A DNA stretch of 53,938 nt, from the NCBI GenBank assembly GCA_903885605.1, contig CAISJD010000200.1, positions 1 through 53,938 on the forward strand, written 5' to 3'. The DNA comes from an uncultured Chthonomonas sp. GTDB taxonomy: Bacteria > Armatimonadota > Chthonomonadetes > Chthonomonadales > CAJBBX01. Below, piece after piece: positions 23,377 through 31,809 of this stretch. The notes beneath the pieces were generated by a model. It had not been told where the DNA came from. It did not search any database and was given only the letters and a program-made list of their open reading frames with translations. The translations under genes and the position numbers were made by a program. Each line of letters starts with the position of its first letter. The stretch's first letter is position 1.

Positions 23377-23754
23377 TCAGCATCGGGGCTTCTCGAAGTA
23401 GCGTACTCCGGGCGGCCCCTCCATATGGTCGTCCTGGGTCAGGAGTGTTGCGCCGTGCCTCCGGGCCGTGGCATAGATCAGGCTGTCGGCCGGCGGAAGT
23501 GGGTACCGTGCGGCCTCCAGCGCCAACGGGATGTCCAGCTCCACGACGGTCCCGGCGTGCATAGCGGCCGCCGCTCCCAGGGCGGCATCCTCGCCCGCCT
23601 CGCGCAGCGCCTTCTTGAACACCTCGTAGACGCTGGTCTCCGGCACCAGGAGATTGTCCGTTTCCTCGATGGCGGATGCGTATAGGTCAGCCTTGGAACT
23701 GCCTGCCGGGTACTCCAGCCAGCCCGACGAGCCCACGACTACCGCGGCGCTCAC
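23377..23754 (-). CDS. PIN-domain toxin homologue lacking its first catalytic Asp
   Basis: 125 residues from GTG 23754. The PIN/VapC framework is plain: SSGWLEY at 9-15, SVYEVFKKAL with the conserved Glu44, PPADSLIYATARRHGATLLTQDD with Asp90 and Asp108/109, and a GVRYF end. The first metal-binding Asp, expected at residue 8 in the usual VVDSSGWLEY, is Gly (codon GGC where GAC would restore it). The helix before Asp90 also looks about four to five residues shorter than in relatives. Both suggest a weakened or dead RNase. The GTG start overlaps the antitoxin stop as GTGA, the normal operon order. Confidence 0.85.
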   Translation of the reverse strand: MSAAVVVGSSGWLEYPAGSSKADLYASAIEETDNLLVPETSVYEVFKKALREAGEDAALGAAAAMHAGTVVELDIPLALEAARYPLPPADSLIYATARRHGATLLTQDDHMEGPPGVRYFEKPRC

Positions 23755-23957
23755 GACCGATCTTCATCGCGCGAGAAGTCGGTATCCAGCGCCGGCAGCG
23801 AGCCGCGCAGGGCCGTCATGGGGCGCACGGGCGCCGGCTCAACTCGGTCACCGTGTCGGAAGACGCGAAACTGCTCGCCGGGCGTCAGGGACATCTCCTC
23901 CCGGACCGCCTGAGGGATCACTACCTGGTACTTTGCCGAGAGGGTGACGGTAGTCAT
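23751..23957 (-). CDS. AbrB/SpoVT-type antitoxin (VapB-like)
   Basis: 68 residues. The sequence begins MTTVTLSAKYQVVIPQAVRE, the swapped-hairpin AbrB DNA-binding domain of VapB/MazE-type antitoxins. The tail (PVRPMTALRGSLPALDTDF) resembles the toxin-binding tail of PIN partners. It precedes and overlaps the PIN gene by 4 bp. A longer reading to 24068 adds a non-conserved N-terminus and is not supported. A short inverted repeat immediately upstream is a candidate self-regulation site. Confidence 0.88.
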   Translation of the reverse strand: MTTVTLSAKYQVVIPQAVREEMSLTPGEQFRVFRHGDRVEPAPVRPMTALRGSLPALDTDFSRDEDRS

Positions 23958-23959
23958 AT

Positions 23960-23973: not shown

Positions 23974-24074
23974 TTGAACGGACTGCCGATGCATGAGCTA
24001 ATCGTACTCCATGCCATCAGGATGGGCCGTTGTGAATGGTCCCGGCCTGTCTCGTTCCCTACTCCCACGTCGCT

Positions 24075-24190
24075 GCCGCGCTACGCGCAGGGAACCGGCA
24101 GGGCGCTGTCCGCTCCCTCGCAGGACTCCGAGCTTGCCGCGCCGAACTTGGCCGCATGAACGTCCTTCCCGTATGCGCCATGCTTGCGGC
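24075..24190. repeat. 116-bp direct repeat, copy A (orphan 5' end of the DUF4838 gene)
   Basis: Matches 24997-25112 over 116 bp with four mismatches (offset 922 bp, no gaps). In copy B this sequence holds the leader, start codon and first signal-peptide codons of the DUF4838 gene. Copy A has the same start codon but then runs into unrelated sequence. It ends 1 bp from the end of hepT. Confidence 0.9.
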
Positions 24191-24191
24191 T

Positions 24192-24578
24192 TCAGGCTTC
24201 GAGTTCGGCGGCGATACGCACTACAACCTCGGCGACAGCAGCCGCAATGGTCGGACGATCAAGGTCGGCGTCTGTGGCATCATACGCCTCATATCGGTAC
24301 TGGACAGCGAATGAGCTGAGATGAACGAGCGGCTAGGCGCTGCCGACGTCGGCCCCCAGATCATCGAGAGTGCTGAGCAGGAGGACGAGGTTGTGGCTCA
24401 TCGGCGCGGAGCCGCCGAGATGCTCGATCCAAGCCTTCAGCGCCTTCTCGACGGCCTGCTGGGCATGAAACCCGAACACCTCGACGGCGAAGACATGACG
24501 GTCTGCCATGGCCTGTGTCGCGGCTAAGTCCCTCCGCGCCATCTCGAGGAAGGCGACCGCGCGGTCAGATGCTGCCAT
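24192..24578 (-). pseudogene. HEPN-domain toxin gene (HepT-like) interrupted by an in-frame TAG
   Basis: Codons 1-81 encode a HEPN domain with FHAQQAVEKALKAWIEHLGG and PMSHNLVLLLSTL. Codon 82 is TAG (24335-24333). The same frame then continues for 46 codons as a good HEPN C-terminus, including FAVQYRYEAYD, to a TGA at 24194-24192. The full product would be about 128 residues, the normal size. One base change (for example CAG to TAG) explains the break. HepT is the RNase toxin and MntA its antidote. ATG 24578 overlaps mntA by 14 bp. Possibilities are a disabled toxin, suppressor read-through, or a sequencing error. Confidence 0.8.
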
Positions 24579-24897
24579 ACAGATGCCGCCCCTCGGTGAG
24601 CGCCCGTGAGATGAGGTGCCCACGGACATTGCGCCAGCGGTCTATCTCGCTATGGCTGTACAGCACCAGGTCAGCAGGCATCCGCAGCCTGCCTGCTATG
24701 GCCCAAAGCCGCGCCAACTCATCCCAGCGGCTATCGCCCGGGCCGAACGCCGCGCTCCGTACGACCAGCAAATCCGTGTCCGAATCCTCACGCCCATCGC
24801 CGCGAGCACGCGATCCGAAAAGCACGATGGCCTCCGGCGCGGTCTCTCGAACCACGGCAGACACGAATGCATCTATCAGGACATCCCATTGAGCCAT
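24565..24897 (-). CDS. MNT-type nucleotidyltransferase antitoxin (MntA-like)
   Basis: 110 residues. The minimal nucleotidyltransferase motif is intact: IVLFGSRARGDGREDSDTDLLVV, the GSxARGD...SDxD pattern that binds two metals. In known pairs MntA AMPylates a tyrosine of the HEPN toxin and silences it. It is the first gene of the pair, overlaps hepT by 14 bp, and has its own strong minus-strand promoter. The whole module lies between the two copies of a 116-bp direct repeat. Confidence 0.9.
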   Translation of the reverse strand: MAQWDVLIDAFVSAVVRETAPEAIVLFGSRARGDGREDSDTDLLVVRSAAFGPGDSRWDELARLWAIAGRLRMPADLVLYSHSEIDRWRNVRGHLISRALTEGRHLYGSI

Positions 24898-24940
24898 GGA
24901 CTTGGCGCCTCAGGTTGGTTTGGTAGCGGCTGTCGCCGTG

Positions 24941-24969
24941 AGTATACAGTCGCGTGGCCTGATGGTCAA
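24941..24969 (-). promoter_or_regulatory. Promoter TTGACC-N17-TATACT for mntA-hepT
   Basis: On the minus strand TTGACC (24969-24964) and TATACT (24946-24941) are spaced by 17 nt, close to consensus. The leader to the mntA ATG at 24897 is about 37 nt. Confidence 0.7.
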
Positions 24970-24996
24970 TGGCCCTGCGCCCGGCCTCTGAGTGCG

Positions 24997-25112
24997 GCCG
25001 CGCTACGCGCAGGGAACCGGCAGGGCGCCGTCCGCTCCCTCGCAGGACTCCGACCTTACCGCGCCGAACTTGGCCGCATGAACGCCCTTCCCGTATGCGC
25101 CATGCTTGCGGC
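24997..25112. repeat. 116-bp direct repeat, copy B (functional 5' end of the DUF4838 gene)
   Basis: The partner of 24075-24190, 112 of 116 bases identical. It contains the leader, the ATG at 25078 and the first 11-12 codons of the downstream gene. The 806 bp between the copies hold only the HEPN/MNT module and its promoter. Confidence 0.9.
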
Positions 25113-26901
25113 CACTCTCTCCGCCGCGCCGTTGCTTGCCATGCCCAAGGAGCCACGCGCCATGCCCGATGCCGCTCCCGCCATCACGTTGGTCCGCGCG
25201 GGGCGGGCCGCCTGCCGCATCGTGGTTCCCGCCAACGCCGCGCCGGTGGTGCGCCATGCCGCCGAGGAGTTGCGGCGGCTGGTGGCGGGGATGTCCGGGG
25301 CGACGCTGCCCATCGCCGAGGAGGGCAAGGGTGGGCGCGGCGCGGCCGTCTATCTGGGGCCGACGCGCAAGGCCGCGGCGCTCTTCGCCTCTGGCGGCAA
25401 GCCCTCGGCGGAGGACGGCGTGGCAATCCGCACCGCCGGGCGCGACCTGGTGCTGCTGGGCGGCAACGGGCGCGGGCACCTCTACGCCGTCTACGTGCTG
25501 CTGGAAAAGTGGCTCGGCGTGCGACACCTGGCGCACGACTGCACGGTGGTCCCCAGGCGGGCCACGGTGACGCTGCCGAAGATCGACTTCACCTACGCTC
25601 CGCCCTTCATGTACCGCGAGGCGCTCTACTGGGACGCCTACCCCAAGGAGACCGCCGCGCCTCAGCGGCTCAATGGTCCGGCCACCAAGTGCGATGAGGG
25701 CACCGGGGGCAAGGTCGCCTTCTTCCCCTACGTCCACAGCTTCTGCAAGCTGGTGCCGCCGGAGAAGTACTTCGCCGAGCACCCCGAGTACTTCAGCCTC
25801 GTCGCGGGCAAGCGCACCAACCTGACGATCCACGGCCAGCTCTGCCTGACGAACCCCGACGTGCTGCGGATCGCCACGGCCCAGGCTCTGGCTTGGATCC
25901 GCGAGAACCCGGACATCCCCATCATCGACATCTCGCAGAACGACGGCGAGGGCGCTTGCGAGTGCGAGGCCTGCGTGGCCGTGGAGCGCGAGGAGGAGAG
26001 CAAGCACGGGCCCATCCTGCGGTTCGTCAACGCCATCGCCGACGTGGTGAAGCGCGAGTACCCGGACAAGTGGGTGGAGACGCTGGCTTACGCCTACTCC
26101 ACCAAGCCGCCTGTCAAGGCGCGCCCACGCGACAACGTCATCATCCGCCTCTGCCATGCCGGGTGCTACCATCACGGCTTCGAGGCCTGCGGCCTGGGCG
26201 CCAACCTGACGACCTACCTGGAGGGGTGGCGCAAGCTCACGCGGCGCATCTTCATCTGGCACTACGCGGCCAACTTCGCCCACTACATCGCGCCCAACTT
26301 CAACCTCCAGGGGCTGGCCGCCGACCTGAAGGCCTACCCGCGCTACGGCGTCAACGGCGTCATGGTCCAGGCCGACCACCAGGGGCCCGGCGGCGAGCTG
26401 GCCGAGCTTCGGCAGTACCTGATCTCGCAACTGCTCTGGGACCCCACCCGCGATCCCATGGAGGTCCGCGCCGAGTTCTGCGCGGGCTACTACGGACCCG
26501 CTGCGACCGACGTGGAGGCCTACCTGGCGCTGGTCGATGCCGAAGGCGCCCGGAAGGATGTCCACGCTTTCGGCGCATGGGACCCGACGGGCGCCGTGCG
26601 GCCCGAGTTCGTGGCCCGCGGGCTGGAGGTTCTGGCCGGCGCCCGGGCGAAGTGTTCCGACGAAGCGGTGCGCAACCGCGTGGACAAGCTGTTGCTGCCG
26701 CACTGGTACGCCCAGCTCCAGTGGCCCGACAAGTACGCGCTGCCCGCCGCCGAAGCGCCCGCCCTGGTGGCGAAGTTCCGCCGCGTGGTGGAGCGCAACC
26801 AGATCACCTACGTCCGCGAGGACTTCAACAGCCCAAGCATGCCCGGCTGGCTTGCCGAGATGCAGAGGCGCTACCCAACCCAAGGAACAGAGACCCCATG
26901 A
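25078..26901 (+). CDS. Secreted DUF4838 protein (putative glycoside hydrolase)
   Basis: 607 residues. A signal peptide, MNALPVCAMLAATLSAAPLLA, is followed by a GH67/GH20-like N-terminal alpha/beta domain at about 35-140 (HAAEELRRLVAGMSGA, DLVLLGGNGRGHLYAVYVLLEKWLG). The DUF4838 domain follows, with HPEYFSLVAGKR, ISQNDGEGACECEAC (the family's C-x-C-x-x-C signature), DNVIIRLCHAGCYHH and IFIWHYAANF. It probably acts on an uronic-acid or hexosamine-containing glycan; the activity of DUF4838 proteins is not defined. The start shares the 116-bp repeat and lacks a good Shine-Dalgarno site. The stop overlaps the next gene as ATGA. Confidence 0.87.
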   Translation: MNALPVCAMLAATLSAAPLLAMPKEPRAMPDAAPAITLVRAGRAACRIVVPANAAPVVRHAAEELRRLVAGMSGATLPIAEEGKGGRGAAVYLGPTRKAAALFASGGKPSAEDGVAIRTAGRDLVLLGGNGRGHLYAVYVLLEKWLGVRHLAHDCTVVPRRATVTLPKIDFTYAPPFMYREALYWDAYPKETAAPQRLNGPATKCDEGTGGKVAFFPYVHSFCKLVPPEKYFAEHPEYFSLVAGKRTNLTIHGQLCLTNPDVLRIATAQALAWIRENPDIPIIDISQNDGEGACECEACVAVEREEESKHGPILRFVNAIADVVKREYPDKWVETLAYAYSTKPPVKARPRDNVIIRLCHAGCYHHGFEACGLGANLTTYLEGWRKLTRRIFIWHYAANFAHYIAPNFNLQGLAADLKAYPRYGVNGVMVQADHQGPGGELAELRQYLISQLLWDPTRDPMEVRAEFCAGYYGPAATDVEAYLALVDAEGARKDVHAFGAWDPTGAVRPEFVARGLEVLAGARAKCSDEAVRNRVDKLLLPHWYAQLQWPDKYALPAAEAPALVAKFRRVVERNQITYVREDFNSPSMPGWLAEMQRRYPTQGTETP

Positions 26902-28655
26902 CGATCCGCACCGTCGCCTCGGCCGCCGCGCTACTGGCCTTTGCCGCACAGGCATTGGCCGCCGAGTTCTGGGTGGCGCCCAACGGCAAGGACGCCAACC
27001 CCGGCACCAAGGCCAGGCCAGTCGCTACCCTCCGCCGTGCCCGCGACCTGGCCCGCGCCGCCATCGCAGCCAAGCGCTCCCCGGTGACGGTCACGCTCAG
27101 GGCCGGGACCTACTTCCTGGCCTCGCCGCTGGAGCTCACCTCCGCCGACAGCGGCTCCGCCGGTGCGCCCGTTATCTACACCAGCCTGCCGGGCGAGGCC
27201 GTCACGATCAGCGGCGGCTCGCCCGTGGCGGGCTGGAAGCAGCAGCCTGACGGGCTGCTTGCCGCGCCCATCCCCGCCGGAGGCTCCCTCAAGGCCATGC
27301 GCCGGCTCTTCGTGGGTACGAGCCGGGCGACGCGCGCGCGGTGGCCCAATGAGGACGGCGCCCTGACGCTGGCGACGGTGTCGGGCGACGTGAAGTCCTT
27401 CACGCTCTCACAGCCCATCCCCGGCGGCGACCTGGCCGGAACGGGCGCGGAGCTGGTGGTCTACGAGAACTGGTCGGTCACCCGCGGCGCCGTCACCCGA
27501 TCCGGCGGCGACAAGCTGGATACGGCCACTCCCATGGGCTGGATCGGCCACGGTCCCATGACCACCGCCAGCCCCGGCAAGCCCGCGTTCGTGGAGGGCG
27601 GCAAGGCCTTCCTCGACCAGCCCGGCGAGTGGTGCGTCGACGGCGGCCGCATCCTCTACAAGCCCCGTTCCGGCGAGACCGCCGCGAACCTGAAGGCCGT
27701 GGCGCCCCGGTTGGAGCGGCTGGTGGTCTTCCGAGGCGAGGCGGGAAGGCCTGTGCGGCATATCGTCTTCCGCGGCGTGACCTTCGCTCATACCGAGTTC
27801 GCGCTGCCGGTGGTGGGCTACTGCGAGATCCAGGCGGGCCACTACGGCCCTGCCACGGGACAGCCCTGCTGGGTTCAGCCGGTGGCCGTCGAGGCCGCCT
27901 GCGCCGAGGATTGCCGGCTGGAGCGCTGCACCCTGCGGAACCTGGGCGGCTCGGCCGTCGGCATTGGGCGTGGCTGCAAGCGCGTGGCCGTGAGCCGCTG
28001 CACGTTGGAGGACATCGGCGGCAACGGCGTCATGGTCGGGTGGCGCGGCAACAAGGGCGCCATCCACTGCCAGGCCGGCGATCTCGATGCCGACTGGGTC
28101 GATCCCGCCGATGCGCCGGCAGGCTGCACCGTCACCGACAACGTGATCACCCGATGCGGAGCGTTCAGTCCCGGCTGCGTGGGGGTCTACGCGGCCTTCA
28201 GCGCCGACACGGTGGTGGCCCACAACCTCGTGCACGACATGCCCTATACCGGCATGTCCATCGGGTTCCGCTGGAGCCAGGAGCCGAGCACGCAGACCCG
28301 GTGCATCGTCGAGAACAACCACATCCACGACGTGATGAAGCTCCTGGCCGACGGCGGCGGCATCTACACGCTGGGTGTGCAGCCGGGCACGGTACTCCGC
28401 GGTAACCGCATCTACGACGTCCACCGCAGCGGCTTCGCCCAGGGCGGGGCGCCGAACAACGGCTTCTTCGTGGACGAGAGCAGCACGGGCTTCCTCTTTG
28501 AGCGGAACCTCGTCTACCGCACCTCCGGTGAGCCCGTGCGGTTCAACCGTTGCGCGCAGGACTGGCACACGTGGAAGGACAACCTGCTGGGCTGGGACGA
28601 GAAGGAGAGCCCCGAGGCGGCGGCCATCATCAAGGCGGCCGGCCCGAGGAAGTAG
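26898..28655 (+). CDS. Secreted right-handed beta-helix protein
   Basis: 585 residues. The signal peptide MTIRTVASAAALLAFAAQALA is followed by EFWVAPNGKDANPGTKARP, the standard opening of 'right-handed parallel beta-helix repeat-containing' proteins. TLRAGTYFLASPLEL follows. Many PbH1-like coils come after, for example CRLERCTLRNLGGSAVGIGR, CTLEDIGGNGVMVGW and CIVENNHIHDVMKLLADGGGIYT. These proteins are commonly lyases or hydrolases of acidic polysaccharides. It overlaps the upstream DUF4838 stop by 4 bp. Its last codons and stop form the first copy of a 35-bp direct repeat around vapBC. Confidence 0.87.
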   Translation: MTIRTVASAAALLAFAAQALAAEFWVAPNGKDANPGTKARPVATLRRARDLARAAIAAKRSPVTVTLRAGTYFLASPLELTSADSGSAGAPVIYTSLPGEAVTISGGSPVAGWKQQPDGLLAAPIPAGGSLKAMRRLFVGTSRATRARWPNEDGALTLATVSGDVKSFTLSQPIPGGDLAGTGAELVVYENWSVTRGAVTRSGGDKLDTATPMGWIGHGPMTTASPGKPAFVEGGKAFLDQPGEWCVDGGRILYKPRSGETAANLKAVAPRLERLVVFRGEAGRPVRHIVFRGVTFAHTEFALPVVGYCEIQAGHYGPATGQPCWVQPVAVEAACAEDCRLERCTLRNLGGSAVGIGRGCKRVAVSRCTLEDIGGNGVMVGWRGNKGAIHCQAGDLDADWVDPADAPAGCTVTDNVITRCGAFSPGCVGVYAAFSADTVVAHNLVHDMPYTGMSIGFRWSQEPSTQTRCIVENNHIHDVMKLLADGGGIYTLGVQPGTVLRGNRIYDVHRSGFAQGGAPNNGFFVDESSTGFLFERNLVYRTSGEPVRFNRCAQDWHTWKDNLLGWDEKESPEAAAIIKAAGPRK

Positions 28656-28667
28656 GCGGAGCCGCTT
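28633..28667. repeat. 35-bp direct repeat, copy 1 (3' end of the beta-helix gene)
   Basis: Matches 29416-29450 with a single mismatch (offset 783 bp). Copy 1 carries the last seven sense codons and TAG stop of the beta-helix gene plus 12 bp. The vapBC module fills the space between the copies. Confidence 0.88.
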
Positions 28668-28695
28668 GACATCAGGGCATCACGGACCGTATGCT
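28666..28695 (+). promoter_or_regulatory. Promoter TTGACA-N18-TATGCT for vapBC; likely leaderless start
   Basis: A consensus -35 TTGACA (28666-28671) and TATGCT (28690-28695) with an 18-nt spacer. The expected start point, 7-8 nt past the -10, coincides with the A of the vapB ATG at 28703, and no Shine-Dalgarno site fits in between. Confidence 0.7.
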
Positions 28696-28702
28696 CTGGT
28701 GC

Positions 28703-28951
28703 ATGAGAACAACGCTTACGCTCGACGACGATGTTGCCGCCATGGTGGCGCGGTACCAGAAGCGAACGGGTGCACGGGCCAAGCGGATCGTGAACGACGC
28801 GCTGAGGCGAGGCCTCAGCGCGTTGGAGGCGCCGGACGCGCCGACGCTCCAGTACCGTACGCAGGCGGTCTCGTTGGGCCGATGCCTGCTGCCCGGTCTC
28901 GATGACGTGGCCGACGCCCTGGCATCAGCCGAAGGCGACGACTTCCGGTGA
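28703..28951 (+). CDS. vapB: VapB-type antitoxin (DUF2191-like)
   Basis: 82 residues beginning MRTTLTLDDDVAAMVARYQ, with RIVNDALRRGL, the standard ribbon-helix-helix opening of VapB antitoxins of the DUF2191 type. The C-terminal tail (YRTQAVSLGRCLLPGLDDVADALA) would wrap the toxin. ATG 28691, in frame, lies inside the -10 box and is unlikely to be used. It overlaps vapC by 4 bp (GTGA). Confidence 0.9.
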   Translation: MRTTLTLDDDVAAMVARYQKRTGARAKRIVNDALRRGLSALEAPDAPTLQYRTQAVSLGRCLLPGLDDVADALASAEGDDFR

Positions 28952-29376
28952 TCCTGGTAGACGCCAACCTCCTGATCTATGCTCACGTCTCCGGCCTGCC
29001 GGCTCACGAGCGTGCCAGGGAATGGTTGGATAGTGTCCTGAACGACCACGCCAAGGTGGGCCTGTCGTGGCCCAGCATCCTGGCATTCGTGCGCCTTACC
29101 ACTAACCCGCGCGTGTTTGAGCGTCCCATGGCCATCGCTGATGCATGGGCGATCATGCGCGGACTACTGGCGTGTGCACAGGTCTGGGTCCCCGTCCCAA
29201 CCGAGCGCCATGCGGACATTCTTGACCAATTGCTTCCGGCGGCGGGTGGCCGCGCCAACCTTGTGCCCGACGCGCATCTGGCTGCGCTGGCGCTCGAGCA
29301 TGGTCTCTTGCTGTGCTCCGCCGACGGTGACTTCGCCCGGTTCCCCGGCCTGAGGTGGCAGAACCCGCTGGCATGA
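28948..29376 (+). CDS. vapC: VapC-type PIN-domain ribonuclease toxin
   Basis: 142 residues from GTG 28948. Catalytic acids are intact: Asp5 in MILVDANLLIYAH, Asp108 in LVPDAHLAALALEHG, and Asp126/Asp128 in CSADGDFARFPGL. The WPSILAFVRLTTNPRVF region is typical of the VapC branch found with DUF2191 antitoxins. Such toxins cleave tRNA or rRNA. Unlike the other two toxins in the window, no lesion is visible. The pair is bracketed by 35-bp direct repeats taken from the 3' end of the upstream gene. Confidence 0.93.
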   Translation: MILVDANLLIYAHVSGLPAHERAREWLDSVLNDHAKVGLSWPSILAFVRLTTNPRVFERPMAIADAWAIMRGLLACAQVWVPVPTERHADILDQLLPAAGGRANLVPDAHLAALALEHGLLLCSADGDFARFPGLRWQNPLA

Positions 29377-29415
29377 CGGCCAGTGCTTTGGCGGCGTAGT
29401 TCCAACGAACACCTG

Positions 29416-29450
29416 AGGCGGCCGGGCCGAGGAAGTAGGCGGAGCCGCTT
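29416..29450. repeat. 35-bp direct repeat, copy 2
   Basis: 34 of 35 bases equal to 28633-28667. Immediately after it comes AAGGAGG, the Shine-Dalgarno site of the next DUF4838 gene. Removing one repeat plus vapBC would place the beta-helix stop about 28 bp before that gene's start, a normal operon junction. Confidence 0.88.
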
Positions 29451-29466
29451 AAGGAGGGTCTGCGGC

Positions 29467-31809
29467 ATGCGTCTATCGACGTTGGGCTGGATGGTCGCTG
29501 TCGCGGCGTTCGGCGCGCAGGCGTCGGCTGCTGCGTTCGAGCACTCGCCGAGCCGGCCGGCCGTCATCATCACAAGCGCCGGCGCCTCTGCCGCTGAGGC
29601 TACGGCCGCGCAGGAGGCCGCCCACTACCTGGGTCTGGTCACCGGTGCGAAGCCGGAGGTCAGGCCCGAGGGCGGCGCGCCTGCGGGGTCCGGTCGCATC
29701 TACATCGGGCCCACGGGGGCGGCGGCGCGGCTGGGCATTGACGCCTCCAAGCTGGGCCCCGAGGAGTGGATCGTCCGCACCTTGGGCCGCGACCTCTACC
29801 TGGTCGGCGGAAGGCCGCGCGGGACGCTCTATGCCGCGTACCACTTCCTTGAGGATGTCGTCGGCGTCCACTGGTGGAGCCCCTGGGCCGAGAGCGTTCC
29901 CCGCAGGCCCCGGCTCCGGCTGAGCGCGACCGCCCTGCGCGGCGCTCCGGCGTTCCGGTACCGCGACATCTACATGCTCTATGGCCGCGATGAGGGCCGG
30001 TTCGCCGCCCGCAACCGCCTCAACCGCGACGGCGACGTTGCCATCCACGCCCGCTACGGCGGGTCGCTCTCCTACGGCCCGCCCTACCACGTCCACACGG
30101 CCTACTCCTACTTCCCGCCGTCCGACTGCTTCGGCCGCCATCCCGAGTGGTACTCGCTGATCGACGGCCGTCGCACCACGGAGAACGCTCAGCTCTGCTG
30201 GACAAACCCGGAGCTTCGGGCCGCCTTCCGGGAGAAGCTCCTGTCGACGATTCGCTCCTCGTGGGCCGCCGCACGCGCTAAGGGAGAGCCGCCGCCGCTG
30301 GTCTTCAGCATCTCGCAGAACGACTGCTACGGCGCCTGCCAGTGCCCTGCGTGCAAGGCGGTGACCGAGGCTGAGGGTTCCGAAGCCGGCCCGCTTCTGG
30401 AGTTCGTGAACCTGATGGCCGATGCGGTGAAGGGCGAGTTCCCCGAGGTCTTCATCGACACGCTGGCCTACCAGTACACCCAGAAGGCCCCGAAGACCCT
30501 CCGTTGCCGCGACAACGTCATCATCCGCCTCTGCGACACCGAGGCCGATATGCTCAAGCCGATCACCGCGCCGGAGAACCGGGCGTTCCGCGAGCATATC
30601 CTCTCCTGGGCGCGCATCGCCCGGAACCTGCGCATCTGGGACTACGCCGTGACCTACGGCACCCTCGGCATGCCCCTGCCCACGGCGCACACGTTCGGCC
30701 CGGACTACCGGTTCTACCTGGCGCACAACGTGGAGGGCGTCTTCACCGAGCTGGAGTACGAGCTGCTGGCCGATATGCGCGACTGCAAGGTCTGGATCAT
30801 GATGAAGACGCTGGAGGACCCGTCGGCCGACTACGAAGCGCTGACCGACACCTTCATGCGAGGCTTCTACGGCCCGGCCGGCCGGTGGGTGGGGCAGTAC
30901 GTGCGGGAGCTGGCGTCCGAAGCCGCGCGGCGGAAGAGCCGGAGCACCTGCTGGCAGGGCTCGCCCACGCAGCTCTCCTACCTGACGCCGGAGTTCATCG
31001 CCAGGGGGCAAGCGCTGTTTGACCGCGCCGCCCGGGCCGTTGCGTCGGACCCGGCGCTCCGAGCACGCGTGGGGCACGCCCGGCTCCCGCTGGACCGCGC
31101 CACGCTGGCGCTCTATCCCAAGCTGGCGGCCGCATGGCAGGCGGCAGGCAAGCCCGAATTGGACCGGGATGCGGTGGGCCGCCGCGCCCTGGCGGCATGG
31201 TGCGACGAGATCGGCCGCCGCATCGAGCCCGCCAGGCAGGCCTCCGAGCGCCTGGCAGCCGAGGGCGAGATCCAGCGCCTGACGCTGGCCCCCGCGAAGA
31301 CCGGGTTGCCCGCGCCGTTCCGTGACCGGCCCAAGGGATGGGTGATCGACTACACGGCTGTCATGACGCGGAACTGGAACAACGTAGTCAGAGTCGTGCG
31401 TGACCCGGAGGCCGAGACGGGCATCACCAACCGCCTCGACCTGACCGCACAGGATGTGGAGCGCCCCGAGCGGTACCAGATGCCCATGCCGTGGGGCCTC
31501 TACGTCGCCGCCGACCAGAAGACCCTACCAGCCGCCCCGATCCGCGCCGAGGACGTTCCCGGTCCCGGCTACCACTGGTACAAGCTGGGGGCCTATCCGG
31601 TGGCTTCGAGCGCCTATGTCTGGTTCTTCTGGAGTTGGGTCATACAGCTAGACATCGGCAACGCCCAGGACCTCTCCGCGCCGGACCGGCAGTACGAGGT
31701 CTGGGCCCGCGTCAAGTTCGAAGGCCCCCGCTTCCCGCACGGCAAGCCCGGCGACAAGGAGGCCATCTGCGTGGAGAGGGTCGTGCTGGTGAGGCAGAAG
31801 CAGGCATAG
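29467..31809 (+). CDS. Secreted DUF4838 protein, second copy
   Basis: 780 residues. The signal peptide is MRLSTLGWMVAVAAFGAQASA. The N-terminal alpha/beta domain has DLYLVGGRPRGTLYAAYHFLED and VGVHWWSPWAESVP. The DUF4838 domain has HPEWYSLIDGRRT, FSISQNDCYGACQCPACKA (same cysteine signature), DNVIIRLCDTEADML and RIWDYAVTYGTL. About 190 extra C-terminal residues relative to the first copy probably form a beta-sandwich. AAGGAGG at 29451-29457 with a 9-nt spacer fixes the ATG. It was probably once in one operon with the two upstream genes. Sequence similarity to the first copy is moderate, so this is an old duplication. Confidence 0.88.
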   Translation: MRLSTLGWMVAVAAFGAQASAAAFEHSPSRPAVIITSAGASAAEATAAQEAAHYLGLVTGAKPEVRPEGGAPAGSGRIYIGPTGAAARLGIDASKLGPEEWIVRTLGRDLYLVGGRPRGTLYAAYHFLEDVVGVHWWSPWAESVPRRPRLRLSATALRGAPAFRYRDIYMLYGRDEGRFAARNRLNRDGDVAIHARYGGSLSYGPPYHVHTAYSYFPPSDCFGRHPEWYSLIDGRRTTENAQLCWTNPELRAAFREKLLSTIRSSWAAARAKGEPPPLVFSISQNDCYGACQCPACKAVTEAEGSEAGPLLEFVNLMADAVKGEFPEVFIDTLAYQYTQKAPKTLRCRDNVIIRLCDTEADMLKPITAPENRAFREHILSWARIARNLRIWDYAVTYGTLGMPLPTAHTFGPDYRFYLAHNVEGVFTELEYELLADMRDCKVWIMMKTLEDPSADYEALTDTFMRGFYGPAGRWVGQYVRELASEAARRKSRSTCWQGSPTQLSYLTPEFIARGQALFDRAARAVASDPALRARVGHARLPLDRATLALYPKLAAAWQAAGKPELDRDAVGRRALAAWCDEIGRRIEPARQASERLAAEGEIQRLTLAPAKTGLPAPFRDRPKGWVIDYTAVMTRNWNNVVRVVRDPEAETGITNRLDLTAQDVERPERYQMPMPWGLYVAADQKTLPAAPIRAEDVPGPGYHWYKLGAYPVASSAYVWFFWSWVIQLDIGNAQDLSAPDRQYEVWARVKFEGPRFPHGKPGDKEAICVERVVLVRQKQA

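Follow-up and report, generated by a model that had tools for sequence, protein, structure and literature searches.

Small toxin–antitoxin and defence operons between direct repeats of local sequence in a freshwater Armatimonadota genome

Small toxin–antitoxin (TA) and defence operons in a freshwater Armatimonadota genome lie between direct repeats of 35–216 bp, each of unrelated, locally derived sequence. At three sites—those of a MNT/HepT pair, a PD-T4-4-like pair and a vapBC pair—the direct repeat is the mark of insertion, as clean comparisons of filled and empty sites in relatives attest. We consider it very probable that insertion with long target duplication (ILTD) has taken place in this genome, and on balance we favour the reading that the vapBC pair from which the analysis started was acquired horizontally, as a minimal addiction unit, and inserted by the same route. 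Together, these loci suggest that TA and defence units need no recombinase of their own to enter chromosomes, and that part of the landing site is copied as they do so.

The window is the whole stretch of DNA that was analysed, 53,938 nt in length, and belongs to a draft genome (G000) of 5.6 Mb in 211 contigs. Two congeners, G001 and G002, served as the relatives for filled/empty-site comparison; the identity between G000 and G002 is about 88%, an interspecies value. The features of the window discussed below are collected in Table 1.

Table 1. Repeats, genes and signals at the focal vapBC unit and at the HEPN/MNT unit of the same window.
Feature	Position	Strand	Remarks
Beta-helix (GH141-like) gene	26898..28655	+	3' end duplicated
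Direct repeat copy 1, 35 bp	28633..28667	+	end of the beta-helix coding sequence (final codons, stop) and the 12 bp that follow
Insert between copies, 748 bp	28668..29415	+	G+C 0.65 vs 0.70 in flanks
vapBC promoter-like site TTGACA-18-TATGCT	28666..28695	+	consensus match only
vapB, putative antitoxin	28691..28951	+	start at 28703 equally possible
vapC, predicted PIN-domain toxin	28948..29376	+	TIGR00028 Mtu_PIN_fam, E 1e-37
Direct repeat copy 2, 34/35 identical	29416..29450	+	immediately 5' of the Shine–Dalgarno site of the DUF4838 gene
DUF4838 gene #2	29467..31809	+	through base 29521, the 5' end (together with preceding 29397–29466) lacks homology to relatives
119-bp direct repeat copy 1	24072..24190	+	
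HEPN toxin gene	24192..24629	-	in-frame TAG at 24333–24335
MNT nucleotidyltransferase (MntA-like) antitoxin	24565..24897	-	
119-bp direct repeat copy 2	24994..25112	+	spans the DNA upstream of DUF4838 gene #1 (start 25078) and its first codons

The original prediction held that two segments bracketing the vapBC pair match at 34 of 35 bases, and this is confirmed: self-BLAST of the window gives the pair an E-value of 5e-9, and none of 100 Markov (dinucleotide-transition) simulations of the window contained a 34/35 direct repeat at a spacing of 100–6000 bp. The single mismatch (C/G) falls at the 11th base, and the match extends no further on either side. The coding sequence bears out that the beta-helix gene ends within copy 1, which holds its last codons and its TAG stop, and copy 2 does directly precede the Shine–Dalgarno site of the next DUF4838 gene; AAGGAGG follows its final base. 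The description of a 783-bp unit also stands, in that it holds little except a TA pair; vapB and vapC are the sole genes called between the copies. The 35-mer has two copies in the 5.6-Mb genome, with the next matches scoring at most 35 bits, so it is not the common genome-wide repeat that the original prediction had named as grounds for doubt, and a dispersed repeat can be rejected.

The predicted toxin matches TIGR00028 over its whole length (129 bits against a curated cut-off of 73.6) and, as is usual in type II VapBC modules of this family, the putative antitoxin gene precedes and overlaps it. The vapB product is less typical in being weakly recognisable, with 19.3 bits against the Pfam model VapB_antitoxin (PF09957; cut-off 23.4, E 0.001); otherwise the bracketing repeats are the sole unusual feature. 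The -35 box of the promoter-like site straddles the junction of copy 1 and insert, using the final two bases of copy 1. The leader of the focal vapBC is GCGGAGCCGCTT, and the vapBC of G002 is preceded by a similar GCGGGAGGCGCTT leader; given this leader and the position of the -35 box, the last 12 bp of the 35-bp repeat may belong to the vapBC unit.

An empty focal site—beta-helix gene, one 35-bp copy, DUF4838 gene—was expected in relatives, and neither G001 nor G002 has one. The two genes are separated in G001, lying on different contigs among other neighbours. G002 carries an orthologous, decayed vapBC with two internal deletions at the same junction, with no recognisable repeat around it; the focal vapBC therefore predates the G000/G002 split, and a vertically inherited flanking repeat is rejected. 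To the right of the unit, the segment G000 29397–29521, which takes in copy 2 and the signal peptide of DUF4838, has no counterpart in G001 or G002, which agree with each other at 93.7% at the corresponding place, and so the right junction has been rebuilt in G000. Copies as old as the split would be expected to differ at about 4–5 of 35 positions; one difference is observed. In view of the lack of a clean empty site, the repeat-free vapBC of G002, the lack of adjacency in G001 and the 12-bp overlap, the focal duplication could be secondary.

The window holds a second direct repeat, overlooked in the original prediction: 119 bp at 95.8% identity, around a HEPN/MNT pair. The final stop codon of the HEPN gene starts 1 bp past copy 1, and the unit may be decaying, as the internal TAG in the HEPN frame indicates. 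G001 and G002 have a single repeat copy and no HEPN/MNT at this site; their left flank differs. Among the 11 PIN loci of the G000 genome, most have no bracketing repeat, nor does the AbrB/PIN (vapBC-like) pair adjoining serS in the window (vapBC #1, 23377–23958). At the PIN locus C117 (L004/L035), the 3' end of the adjacent gene is duplicated around the unit, in stretches of 104 bp and 27 bp.

A scan for repeat-bracketed inserts covered 1.84 Mb of contig stretches, about a third of the G000 genome; the stretches were picked regardless of TA genes, and some share a contig with a PIN locus examined earlier. Direct repeats of at least 44 bits and at least 85% identity, 150–6000 bp apart, were collected, and 16 pairs were left once tandem and terminal repeats had been removed. 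TA or defence units are bracketed by seven of these 16: a DUF4926/DUF6883 pair (109-bp repeat), TacA/GNAT (TacAT; L096, 216 bp), PsyrTA (L083, 185 bp), a PD-T4-4/PDC-M47-like pair (L091, 38 bp), a kinase/vWA/PP2C triad (L132, 118 bp), MNT/HepT (MntA/HepT; L140, 41 bp) and a HEC-01-like ATPase with its partner (71 bp); the DUF4926/DUF6883 pair and the kinase/vWA/PP2C triad are the least certain as TA or defence. In a control of random genes, from which two repeat-bracketed TA genes drawn at random were omitted, PADLOC matches at 1e-10 occurred in at most 4 of 108, three of them to generic ATPase models. The resulting Fisher p of about 4e-5 is only rough because inserts are compared with genes. 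The remaining pairs in the scan enclose paralogous or repetitive genes, or unnamed inserts (L116, two in L135, L145 and L186).

Repeat copies across loci are almost all 89–98% identical rather than 100%, the G+C of the inserts is below that of the flanks in nearly all cases, and the smaller units contain little DNA beyond the operon. No terminal inverted repeats were found at the insert ends, where 2–8 of 20 terminal bases are complementary (about chance level), and no end motif is shared. The original prediction had also called for a search for other 3'-end duplications flanking TA pairs in the genome, and these do exist (e.g. L091 and C117). Set aside as not of the same kind were Rpn paralogues (L037, L208), NHL paralogues (L058), RCC1 repeats (L140, 4669) and tandem or terminal repeats (L138, L183, L192, the start of L208, L080, L087 and L117); in two of the last, L080 (C21, 4383 bp) and L087 (C30, 3542 bp), the terminal repeats are exact, at 100 and 141 bp, and the contigs are possibly small circular molecules.

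Two of the unnamed inserts deserve a brief description. At L145:15873–18360, two identical 57-bp repeats enclose a 771-aa gene with no Pfam, PADLOC or NCBIfam match; the locus coincides with a rearrangement breakpoint relative to G001. At L135:17385–18433, a 252-aa protein with no database match is encoded between 48-bp repeats, in DNA of low G+C (0.55).

Clean single-copy empty sites were found in relatives at three loci, with repeats of 41, 38 and 55 bp. The MNT/HepT pair (L140) lies between two 41-bp copies in G000, and G001 and G002 have one copy with contiguous flanks. At L091, the 38-bp repeat around the PD-T4-4-like pair consists of the upstream gene's last codons and stop, a geometry identical to that of the focal vapBC, and a single copy is present in G001 and G002. 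At the C117 locus it is G002 (L075) that has the vapBC unit between 55-bp copies (53/55 identical), and G001 that has one copy. That a unit plus one repeat copy constitutes the insertion is thus shown at these three loci; the corresponding empty site at the focal locus is absent from G001 and G002. Elsewhere, the comparison with relatives is uninformative for TacAT (L096), where the repeat belongs to a dispersed intergenic sequence family. PsyrTA (L083) and L145 have flanks that are far apart in G001 (breakpoints) and so offer no clean empty site, and the left flank of the kinase/vWA/PP2C triad (L132) is missing in the relatives.

Several of these places have a history of their own. L140:8862–9659 and L172:1592–2271 are one intergenic site with TA turnover: G000 has MNT/HepT, and some 20 bp upstream G001 and G002 have an AbrB/Doc-like pair, which in G000 is reduced to the 3' end of its doc-like gene. 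This turnover supports a selfish reading of the units. Beside the vapBC insertion site of G002 lies the MNT gene of a MNT/HEPN pair (L075:2669–3060), which has been lost in G001 (L076:2501) via a deletion between short similar sequences of about 17 bp. G002 also has a DUF559-like gene between 59–68-bp repeats, apparently of a dispersed type, right after DUF4838 #2 (L033:12540–13065).

ILTD fits these observations because the duplications vary in length and are of unrelated sequence, the units contain no recombinase and there is no tRNA gene nearby. In such an event, a staggered or template-switching DNA-repair process would join a foreign fragment to the chromosome with no element-encoded recombinase, and repair would copy the target to both sides of the insert; at the focal site the target would be the 35 bp at the end of the beta-helix gene. 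We infer that the origin of the focal repeat was that of the repeats at the other loci, and that the joining was host repair, through template switching or the fill-in of a staggered break. Recombination should readily remove an insert that lies between direct repeats, unless the cell dies without it; TA units may prevail among the inserts because their loss is lethal and addiction selects what persists.

Nobusato et al. (2000, Gene 259:99) and Furuta et al. (2010) reportedly described ILTD of restriction–modification (RM) systems, a subject reviewed in PMC3874152. Three papers state that RM systems insert with long, variable target duplications on the order of 100 bp (PMC3874152, PMC3031569, PMC1643837), and the ILTD literature is cited in PMC1643837, PMC3031569 and PMC2654758. 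Mruk and Kobayashi (PMC3874152), who describe such duplications for RM systems, remark that the mobility of TA pairs is mostly attributed to carrier elements. The cases described here share with ILTD of RM systems foreign addiction-type genes, long and variable direct duplications of the target with no fixed site, no transposase, a single-copy empty site in a relative (L140, L091 and L075 of G002) and an association with rearrangements. They differ in that the cargo is minimal type II/VII TA pairs and small defence operons rather than RM systems, in the Armatimonadota host, in the several cases per genome and in some duplications of only 35–41 bp. ILTD is hence already known, if poorly understood, from RM systems; here its cargo is minimal TA and defence units, in an Armatimonadota lineage. 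No description of ILTD of TA pairs was found in the literature searched, most subscription papers lying outside that search.

At the focal locus, the main competitor is a later duplication: vapBC would already have stood beside the beta-helix gene, and a rearrangement in G000 would have copied the beta-helix/vapBC junction rightward and replaced the 5' end of DUF4838 #2, so that ILTD would be true elsewhere and not the cause here. The orthologous G002 vapBC without a repeat, the lineage-specific segment 29397–29521, copies that look younger than the G000/G002 split, a -35 box that crosses the copy 1 boundary, and a GCGGGAGGCGCTT leader shared by G002 all speak for it; however, gene conversion between the copies would give the same picture, as would loss of the right copy during the decay of the G002 vapBC, and the focal geometry equals that of the clean ILTD case at L091. 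We regard this later duplication as somewhat unlikely, and weigh it and ILTD as we do at this locus because of the age of vapBC relative to the split, the one-base difference, the rebuilt right junction and the -35 overlap. Another way to direct repeats is a Campbell-type single crossover of a circle carrying the TA pair and a homologous host segment, which would explain why almost all copies are imperfectly identical, one having come from a related donor; yet age also explains that divergence, no vector sequence is left, and each unit would need a pre-existing plasmid or circle with local host sequence, which makes this route improbable.

The original prediction likened the repeats to attL/attR, and site-specific integration at gene 3' ends by a lost or trans-acting integrase would account for direct repeats of which one holds a gene's last codons, as well as for the duplicated segments of L091, L132 and the focal site, all of which include the upstream gene's 3' end. 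In contrast to integrative elements, these loci have no constant att core—the duplication differs in length and sequence at every locus, each being unique local sequence—and at 24072–25112, L140 and L096 it is a gene 5' end or intergenic DNA that is duplicated. The units lack an integrase, none appears among the ORFs listed around the focal unit, and no tRNA or Rfam attachment site lies near the focal locus; this reading is largely refuted and very improbable. A transposon or miniature transposable element is rejected given the absence of terminal inverted repeats and duplications that are long and variable rather than short and fixed. TA cassettes of super-integrons are likewise small mobile TA pairs with their own promoter, but no attC-like recombination sites, arrays or integron integrase were seen here, and this origin fails. 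Finally, a draft assembly of 211 contigs invites suspicion of an artefact or a chance repeat; this is hardly credible for non-identical copies inside a 54-kb contig that the simulations did not reproduce, in a pattern backed by filled/empty comparisons with independent genomes.

The entry of solitary chromosomal TA pairs into genomes is usually explained by plasmid, phage or integron carriage. We propose tentatively, as an idea that may well not hold, that minimal TA pairs and small defence operons are a main class of recent chromosomal inserts in this Armatimonadota lineage, joined by a recombinase-free, repair-type process with duplications of 35–216 bp and persisting between readily recombining repeats because their loss would be lethal. 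Where the insert is hardly more than a TA or small defence operon flanked by long target duplications, a filled/empty pair records the joining directly, and makes it possible to test whether addiction keeps inserts in place that would otherwise be unstable. The signature, a small operon enclosed by a direct repeat of local sequence, may also serve as a search key for unknown addiction and defence units, with the uncharacterised repeat-bracketed genes of this genome as candidates. If the proposal on minimal TA and defence units holds, the repeats would record the addiction-selected capture of random DNA.
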